Origin: Bdellovibrionales bacterium CG10_big_fil_rev_8_21_14_0_10_45_34
GTDB taxonomy: Bacteria > Bdellovibrionota > Bdellovibrionia > Bdellovibrionales > 1-14-0-10-45-34
Length of the DNA stretch: 64,000 bases
NCBI GenBank assembly: GCA_002778785.1
Contig: PEZS01000011.1
Coordinates: 124,001-188,000, forward strand
Reading direction: 5' to 3'
Part shown: one piece after another, positions 19,282 to 20,716 of the stretch
Layout of the letters: each line of letters starts with the position of its first letter
Position numbering within the stretch: position 1 is the stretch's first letter
Notes under the pieces: generated by a model
The model's input: only the letters and a program-made list of their open reading frames with translations
Databases searched by the model: none
What the model was told of the DNA's origin: nothing
Program-made: the position numbers and the translations under genes

Positions 19282-19530
19282 ATGAGTCTTGGCCCTATGG
19301 AGCTCTTGGTCATATTAGGTATTGTGCTTTTACTTTTTGGGCCATCCAGGTTGCCTGGTTTAGGCAAATCCATCGGTGAGGCCATCCGCGGATTCAAAAA
19401 AGGTATCGCAGACGATGAAGTCGATGTGACGGCCAAAGATTCCACCGCGAAATATTCTTCAGAAAAACTCGAATCTGCTAAAAAATCAGAATCCGTAAAA
19501 TCCCACACCGAAGACAAATCAAAAGTCTAA
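19282..19530 (+). CDS. tatA: Sec-independent translocase subunit TatA/E
   Basis: Pore-forming subunit of the twin-arginine export system. It has one short TM helix (about residues 7-22), the FGPSRLPGLGKSIGEAIRGFKKG hinge and amphipathic helix typical of TatA, then an acidic, Ser/Lys-rich tail. 82 residues. AGGTGAG precedes the ATG. It lies away from tatB-tatC (43038-44263), so the Tat genes are split between two loci. Confidence 0.92.
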   Translation: MSLGPMELLVILGIVLLLFGPSRLPGLGKSIGEAIRGFKKGIADDEVDVTAKDSTAKYSSEKLESAKKSESVKSHTEDKSKV

Positions 19531-19540
19531 TCAGACGAAC

Positions 19541-19618
19541 AACTCAGACCTCCGGCGAGCGTGAAGCGTTCGCACGCGTCAGCTGCGACGCCGGCGAGAA
19601 CAGGAGTCCGTGTCTGAG
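19541..19618 (+). repeat. 78-bp structured repeat, copy 1
   Basis: Matches copy 2 (19667-19744) at 77 of 78 positions, with A or G at position 59 of the unit. The ends are CTCAGAC and GTCTGAG, which pair. Inside, CCGGCG pairs with CGCCGG around an inner hairpin GCGTG/CACGC. It is far more GC-rich than its surroundings. Copy 1 lacks the long outer arms of copy 2. Confidence 0.93.
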
Positions 19619-19642
19619 GGTACGCCAACTCATTGAGCTAAA

Positions 19643-19770
19643 GTGTGTCTGTACTTCTTTCTCCTTAACTCAGACCTCCGGCGAGCGTGAAGCGTTCGCA
19701 CGCGTCAGCTGCGACGCCGGCGAGGACAGGAGTCCGTGTCTGAGTTAAGGAGAAAGAAGAAAAGACACAC
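19643..19770. repeat. 128-bp inverted-repeat element enclosing copy 2
   Basis: Left arm 19643-19675 and right arm 19738-19770 are reverse complements at 31 of 33 bases (CTTCTTTCTCCTTAACTCAG in the left arm). A transcript of either strand would fold into one long stem topped by the copy 2 structure. It sits between the convergent ends of tatA and the transketolase genes, so it may serve as a bidirectional terminator or transcript-end stabiliser. It also resembles a small non-autonomous mobile element. Confidence 0.85.
19667..19744 (+). repeat. 78-bp structured repeat, copy 2
   Basis: Second copy of the unit, starting 126 bp after the start of the first and separated from it by 48 bp. Its ends extend into longer inverted arms (see 19643-19770). 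Confidence 0.93.
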
Positions 19771-19780
19771 TCCTGCGCAA

Positions 19781-20716
19781 TTAAAAATAAGATTGAATTG
19801 TGTGAGCCACTCCCACGCCATCTAGCTTGTGAAAGCGATAGAGATCTTCTGGAGTGCCACTTTCGCCATAAACATCATTCACACCGATACGAACTACTTT
19901 GCAAGCAAGCCCCAGCCCGCTTGTGACTTCACTCACGGCTGCGCCTAGTCCGCCAATCACACTATGGTCCTCGGCTGTGAAAATTGTTTTAAACTGCGAT
20001 GCGTACTTTTCGATCGAGGCTCGATCAATAGGCTTTATTGATGAAACATTCACGACGCCAACATTTAATCCTTTAGTCGACAATTCTTTTGAAGCTTCAA
20101 GAGCCGAACCCACAAGTGCGCCCGTTGCGAACACTACCGTGTCGCTACCTTCTTTAATTGTATGCGCCTTACCGGGCTCGAAGCGATAGTTTTCACTATG
20201 AACTCGGGGAAGATCTTGCCGAGACAACCTAACATAAGCCGGGCCTTGATGCCGGCACAGGTACTCCATCATTGCATGAGTCTCAATGTCGTCCGCAGGC
20301 TGTAGCACCAACATACCTGGCAGTACGCGCATACATGCTAAATCCTCGAGCGCCATCTGACTGCAGCCATCTTCGCCAATACCCACACCAGCATGCGTAC
20401 CAATGAGTCTCACATTGGCTTGTGCATAGCCAACGGTGACTCGAATTGTGTCAAAACGCCCAGACAAAAAAGCTCCAAACGAACACAAAAATGGCACCTT
20501 GCCCGAGAAGGACATACCAGCTGCCACACCAATCATGTTGGCCTCTTGAATGCCCATCTGAAAGAAACGATTCGGATATTTTTTCGAAAAGCCCTCTGAC
20601 TTTGTACTTTTTGAGAGGTCCGCATCGAGAACAACCACTTGCGGGTAATCCGCACCGAGCTGCACAAGAGCTTCACCAAAACTAGCACGCGTTGCTTTTT
20701 TCTGAACTGCTGTCAT
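19781..20716 (-). CDS. Transketolase, C-terminal half subunit
   Basis: Second half of a two-subunit transketolase, carrying the pyrimidine-binding and C-terminal domains. It runs from LDADLSKSTKSEGF through the conserved QMGIQEANMIGVAAGMSFSG, which holds the Glu that activates thiamine diphosphate, and THAGVGIGEDG, to the C-terminal domain GALVGSALEASKEL and EDHSVIGGLGAAVSEV. 311 residues. The N-terminal half ends 5 bp upstream in the same direction, an arrangement known from archaea and many bacteria. Role: pentose phosphate interconversion of ketose and aldose phosphates. Confidence 0.9.
   Translation of the reverse strand: MTAVQKKATRASFGEALVQLGADYPQVVVLDADLSKSTKSEGFSKKYPNRFFQMGIQEANMIGVAAGMSFSGKVPFLCSFGAFLSGRFDTIRVTVGYAQANVRLIGTHAGVGIGEDGCSQMALEDLACMRVLPGMLVLQPADDIETHAMMEYLCRHQGPAYVRLSRQDLPRVHSENYRFEPGKAHTIKEGSDTVVFATGALVGSALEASKELSTKGLNVGVVNVSSIKPIDRASIEKYASQFKTIFTAEDHSVIGGLGAAVSEVTSGLGLACKVVRIGVNDVYGESGTPEDLYRFHKLDGVGVAHTIQSYF

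Follow-up and report, generated by a model that had tools for sequence, protein, structure and literature searches.

A dispersed family of intergenic palindromes in Bdellovibrionota with a conserved folding head and locus-specific arms

Between a gene of the TatA/B/E family and a convergent transketolase gene in a genome of the Bdellovibrionales there are two nearly identical copies of a 78-nt unit that folds on itself. The locus raises the question of what this unit is and why a long stem is attached to only one of the copies. The window, i.e. the whole stretch of DNA that was analysed, is 64 kb long. Its features are listed in Table 1; the gene contexts, for the window as well as for the loci of the relatives, were taken from simple ORF calls. 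An earlier note, made from the letters alone, had described the repeat pair and this description was borne out. The two copies (19541-19618 and 19667-19744) show a single difference, with A at 19599 and G at 19725, and each of them is closed by the self-pairing ends CTCAGAC/GTCTGAG. The arms are found on copy 2 only, with 32 of 34 positions paired, and in the repeat search they lengthen to 44 nt at 86%. The A at 19599 disrupts one pair of the P3 hairpin and copy 1 is probably a degenerate copy. For the 150-nt hairpin of copy 2 we observed a folding 9-11 standard deviations better than that of dinucleotide shuffles. It is the sole inverted repeat of such strength in the window, and none was found in five shuffles.

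Table 1. Coordinates of the repeat pair, its structural parts and the neighbouring genes in the window
Feature	Position	Strand	Basis
TatA/B/E family gene, upstream	19282..19530	+	PF02416
Copy 1: head unit with only a 7-bp P1, without long arms	19541..19618	+	
Copy 2, left arm, locus-specific, with many U/C on the head strand	19642..19675	+	inverted-repeat search
Copy 2, conserved head made up of J (CT) - P2a - mini-hairpin P2' - P2b - P3	19676..19737	+	structure, covariation
P2a, 5' strand CCGGCG; partner 19715-19720	19678..19683	+	
Mini-hairpin P2', GC-GTGAA-GC	19685..19693	+	
P2b hairpin, TCGCA/TGCGA	19696..19714	+	
P3 hairpin, GGAC-AGGA-GTCC	19724..19735	+	
Right arm of copy 2; pairs with 19642-19675; purine-rich on the head strand	19738..19771	+	inverted-repeat search
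Transketolase C-terminal subunit, convergent neighbour	19781..20716	-	PF02779, PF02780

The earlier note had proposed to search the genome and its relatives for the unit, and we found it in both, genome-wide and phylum-wide. The 78-nt unit is a member of a dispersed intergenic family of folding elements in Bdellovibrionota. The genome of the window has four full sites, namely the one in the window and one each at C10, C13 and C8. All four carry long complementary arms whose sequences are unrelated between the sites, and each is adjoined by partial or degenerate copies. In other families of the order we encountered diverged heads with an unchanged layout. A covariance model of the head was built from ten heads and gave matches in 38 of the order's 141 genomes, which represent 23 of 66 genera, and in 45 of the 369 genomes across the phylum, with a maximum of 30 copies in one genome. 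B. bacteriovorus HD100 (G031) is among the carriers and has two sites, at 423,501-423,576 and 3,086,151-3,086,220; the c-di-GMP-I riboswitch of G031 falls inside the published merRNA coordinates of HD100 (PMC3627812). As the unit is present elsewhere in the genome and in the phylum, the possibility of a chance local duplication, which the earlier note had kept for a unit found nowhere else, is ruled out. No Rfam family matched the element in the window region or at the head loci at the gathering thresholds. A scan of viral sequences for the head pattern and a distant BLAST of one plasmid and one phage collection gave no match either, and we found no earlier description of the family in the open-licence literature.

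To describe the family we inspected 183 elements, which came from 41 genomes. The nearest head was located in the same genome in 120 of 142 cases, compared to 6% by chance. Heads are by far more alike within one genome than between genomes and they appear to spread inside genomes. Insertion as such is presumed: a clean empty/filled pair did not turn up among close relatives, site 1 of G012 had no alignable empty site in G005, and the boundaries of the elements are not precisely definable.

The conserved part of the element is a head of 60-70 nt that has two branches: one is a mini-hairpin whose loop is (G/U)GA, the other a hairpin whose loop is GGA. In 5' to 3' direction the head consists of the GAC stem closure, CU, the 6-bp P2a, A, the mini-hairpin, P2b, CGA, P3 and the GUC closure. 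The consensus of the mini-hairpin is GC-N-(G/U)GA-N-GC and its pairs covary; in relatives it has 3 bp and the loop is GGA or TGA. P2b differs in length and sequence between genomes and is missing in G018. For the P3 loop we observed GGA in most of the family (as AGGA or ANGGAN), with few exceptions in G328. In the alignment of the ten heads 97.3% of the cells were paired, compared to 32-42% with the partners slid. The number of cells with double changes was 41 versus 12.3 in shuffles, where both counts ignore phylogeny. Across 91 sequences most pairs occurred in several or all four Watson-Crick types, and G-U pairs were almost absent from the core helices (4 G-U and 4 A-C in ∼1,320 cells). The head is an uncatalogued, strongly covarying structured motif.

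The arms behave differently from the head. The stem that is capped by the head has a median length of 35 bp, the longest perfect stem reaches 104 bp and perfect arms of 25-104 bp were found in 31 elements. Among 177 elements, a count that leaves out the IS-borne copies, at least 20 arm positions were paired in 161 and at least 60 in 28. Because the covariance model holds only the first bases of the stem, this pairing is an independent validation. Clustering placed the arms of 148 elements in 121 unrelated clusters, 107 of which are singletons. We also compared pairs from one genome whose heads share 97% identity or more; of 35 such pairs, 23 had similar arms and 8 had unrelated ones. The inner arms of G060, G021, G023, G328 and G121 keep a weak common sequence, so the head probably takes some of its arm along when it moves, and this portion diverges later; no common sequence is kept in the inner arms of G131 and G134. 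The arms are locus-specific and stay complementary while their sequence changes. That the stem sequence is different at almost every site suggests that one side is recopied from the other, and repeatedly so. The earlier note had thought of recent copying or selection, of a small mobile element and of a structured RNA, and in this it pointed in the right direction, given the multiple copies, the apparent spread and the covarying fold. The locus-specific arms are the main finding and went beyond its view.

Orthologous sites illustrate how the arms change. For the site adjoining rplL in the genus Bdellovibrio we compared G037 and G103: the head is identical in 51 of 52 bases and the flank in 83%, whereas only 7 of 21 arm bases are identical, which is about the level of unrelated sequence. 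Despite this the arms are complementary in both genomes. The site and its head are conserved over several species of the genus; rplL was identified as ribosomal L7/L12 by Pfam, with the L12 motif seen at most loci, not every one. At a second orthologous site G031/G028 and G014/G101 differ by paired changes, and the element is absent in other species. Two further arms contain the end of a gene. In G060 (L223) the outer arm includes the 3'-terminal codons of an oppC-type permease gene (GCCTTCGACCCCAAGATGAAGAAATAA), whose Pfam domain reaches the final residue, and this gene end recurs in inverted form in the other arm, across the head. The outer arm in G012 (L102, 7830-7987) includes the end of a transpeptidase gene, which the opposite arm repeats in inverted form; in G005 this gene end is present without the palindrome of G012. 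Judging by the outcome, the inverted gene ends in these two arms match what fold-back copying would produce. Inverted repeats are known to undergo template switching, which homogenises their arms (PMC8604942), and the process has also been put forward to explain perfect palindromes that evolve (PMC6649704). A separate observation concerns G023, where the site of G012's headed palindrome is occupied by a headless perfect hairpin of 34 bp with a 4-nt loop (L218:531-602).

On balance we lean towards the following reading: a conserved head spreads in genomes, nucleates the rewriting of its flanks by template switching and is kept by selection on the folded strand. Whenever the region becomes single-stranded, during replication or as RNA, the head would fold and act as a hinge holding the flanks together. 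A polymerase would then switch template and copy one flank onto the other. In this way template switching would create, repair and extend the arms site by site, and the head with the inner arm would occasionally be copied to new intergenic sites. The head would be retained by selection on the folded strand, most likely as a protein-binding site for which CsrA is a candidate. The part of the self-closing head as the hinge is one that the outcome suggests. More tentatively, the family may form a new class of elements, self-palindromising and phylum-wide, in which mainly the head is inherited and copied, whereas fold-back replication makes the long stem anew at every site, with the local flank as its source.

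The mismatches within the arms bear on the strand that is selected. On the head strand and more than 12 bp away from the head we detected 59 G-U compared to 24 A-C mismatches, a lean that was found in 17 genomes with 2 showing the opposite. Next to the head purine-purine mismatches are dominant on one strand (80 versus 8). Given the G-U excess and the purine-purine bias, selection appears to act on the head strand in its folded, single-stranded form, be it RNA or DNA, and the GGA hairpin loops make CsrA a candidate partner. Most P3 loops show the feature of CsrA-binding (Rsm-type) RNAs, a GGA (ANGGA) in a hairpin loop. Selection on the head through one folded strand as a protein-binding site would be the likeliest explanation on the basis of these sequences, and it is the weakest step of the proposal.

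The same mismatch patterns would also fit a head that is a protein-binding RNA, either a CsrA/Rsm-like decoy or a 3'-UTR element, with a stem selected for stability and arms that drift by compensatory mutation without template switching. The GGA of the P3 loop, which recurs in many mini-hairpin loops, agrees with such an RNA, as does the CsrA gene in the genome of the window. However, perfect stems of 64-104 bp exceed what selection for stability would lead us to expect, the inverted copies of gene ends within arms speak against it, and the scarcity of G-U in the core helices is unusual for RNA. Between tandem gene pairs the head was antisense in 33 cases and sense in 17, which led us to reject a sense 3'-UTR element and weighs against the RNA reading in general. 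CsrA itself does not discriminate: nearly every genome of the order has its gene, whether heads occur there or not, and this near-universal presence is uninformative as a predictor of heads. CsrB/RsmZ-type CsrA-binding RNAs and the TwoAYGGAY motif resemble the heads in their GGA-bearing hairpin loops; the heads differ by their branching, by the long stem and by the lack of an Rfam match at the tested sites. In HD100 neither of the two sites is among the eight published attack-phase sRNAs. Overall we regard a structured RNA with arms drifting by compensatory mutation as unlikely.

We consider it distinctly less probable that the elements are non-autonomous mobile DNA of the MITE/REPIN-like type, with a transposase encoded elsewhere that acts on the folded single strand and with arms that are fast-decaying terminal repeats. 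Multi-copy, patchy and genome-specific heads and arms common to some copies are in line with this, and the strictly Watson-Crick core helices are as a DNA fold might be, but the arms diverge and yet stay complementary, which is not simple decay. The conservation of site and head across Bdellovibrio species also conflicts with it. No target-site duplication was recognised in the flanks inspected, where the element boundaries are imprecise and the arms differ between most sites. For G018 and G027 we found a head inside a multi-copy IS-like element, 3' of the gene for a 304-aa putative transposase that has no Pfam match; heads are thus able to hitch-hike. The IS-like element is located at L221:653-1567 (G018) and at L081-L087, with the head after the stop codon and the right end near GGGTCAGTTTA. 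A RAYT (PF01797) was not detected in G012 with its 7 heads, and G060 with 19 heads is not among the genomes with a match. Reverse transcriptases are absent in the head carriers G012, G078, G034 and G348. We rejected both as required enzymes. RAYT-like Y1 proteins occur in 113 of the 141 genomes of the order with a maximum of 24 in G077.

A bidirectional intrinsic terminator between convergent genes, suggested by the earlier note for tatA and the transketolase genes, is highly improbable: the hairpin is stable and 36% of 98 sites lie between convergent genes compared to ∼20% of the neighbour pairs in the window, but 13 of the 98 are flanked by divergent pairs, there is no sense bias, the U-run that a terminator has directly after its GC-rich hairpin is depleted, with TTTT at 15/323 outer edges of the palindromes and 33-39/323 in the flanks (a drop to roughly one half), the U-rich 5' arm and A-rich 3' arm are the reverse of a terminator, and termination does not need a conserved branched head.

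Several known systems share some of these characteristics. REP, BIME and REPIN sequences are likewise dispersed intergenic palindromes, often paired or with partial copies, in genome-specific families (PMC3733652, PMC2817692). In REPs the conserved stem measures 5-13 bp and the end tag is GTAG or CGTC (PMC3733652), whereas the present family has locus-specific stems of 20-100 bp, the head is conserved, no GTAG/CGTC tag is present in the consensus and a RAYT is not required. Rickettsia palindromic elements are also dispersed palindromes multiplying within the genome, but they lose their arm identity with time (PMC6649704), while the head family keeps it as the sequence changes. Quasi-palindromes and the perfect coding palindromes of Nematomorpha mitochondria have arms that remain identical while evolving, for which template switching was proposed (PMC8604942, PMC6649704); a conserved covarying head and a dispersed head family are not described there. 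The core sites of integron attC (RYYYAAC / GTTRRRY at the hairpin ends) were not found, as the arm ends are unconserved between sites.

We also encountered palindromes with heads of 63-86 nt that are unmatched by the R1 model (L184:174-335 in G108, L140:1333-1441 in G123, L096:1460-1603 in G034 and L185:184-355 in G328). Their arms are locus-specific and 23-52 bp long, and TCAGACAT near one end is common to L184 and L140. They may represent additional head families of a similar kind. The elements of G328 (L185-L193) have a second conserved module beyond the inner arms (GATGAAACAAAGTCCTCGCCACC ... GGTGTCTGCGGATATTGTTTCATC), after which the locus-specific arm continues. In G104 two heads of opposite orientation lie ∼250 bp apart (L136:1184-1252 and 1501-1569), and similar close pairs were seen in G021 and G060.

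Known dispersed palindromes keep their stems. The head family keeps the tip and appears to rewrite the stem, and it does so across a phylum that includes the model predator HD100. It would offer a natural system for the birth, extension and repair of palindromes by template switching, which can be read from sequences and tested in the laboratory, and with the covarying head there is a motif for which the binding partner can be sought.
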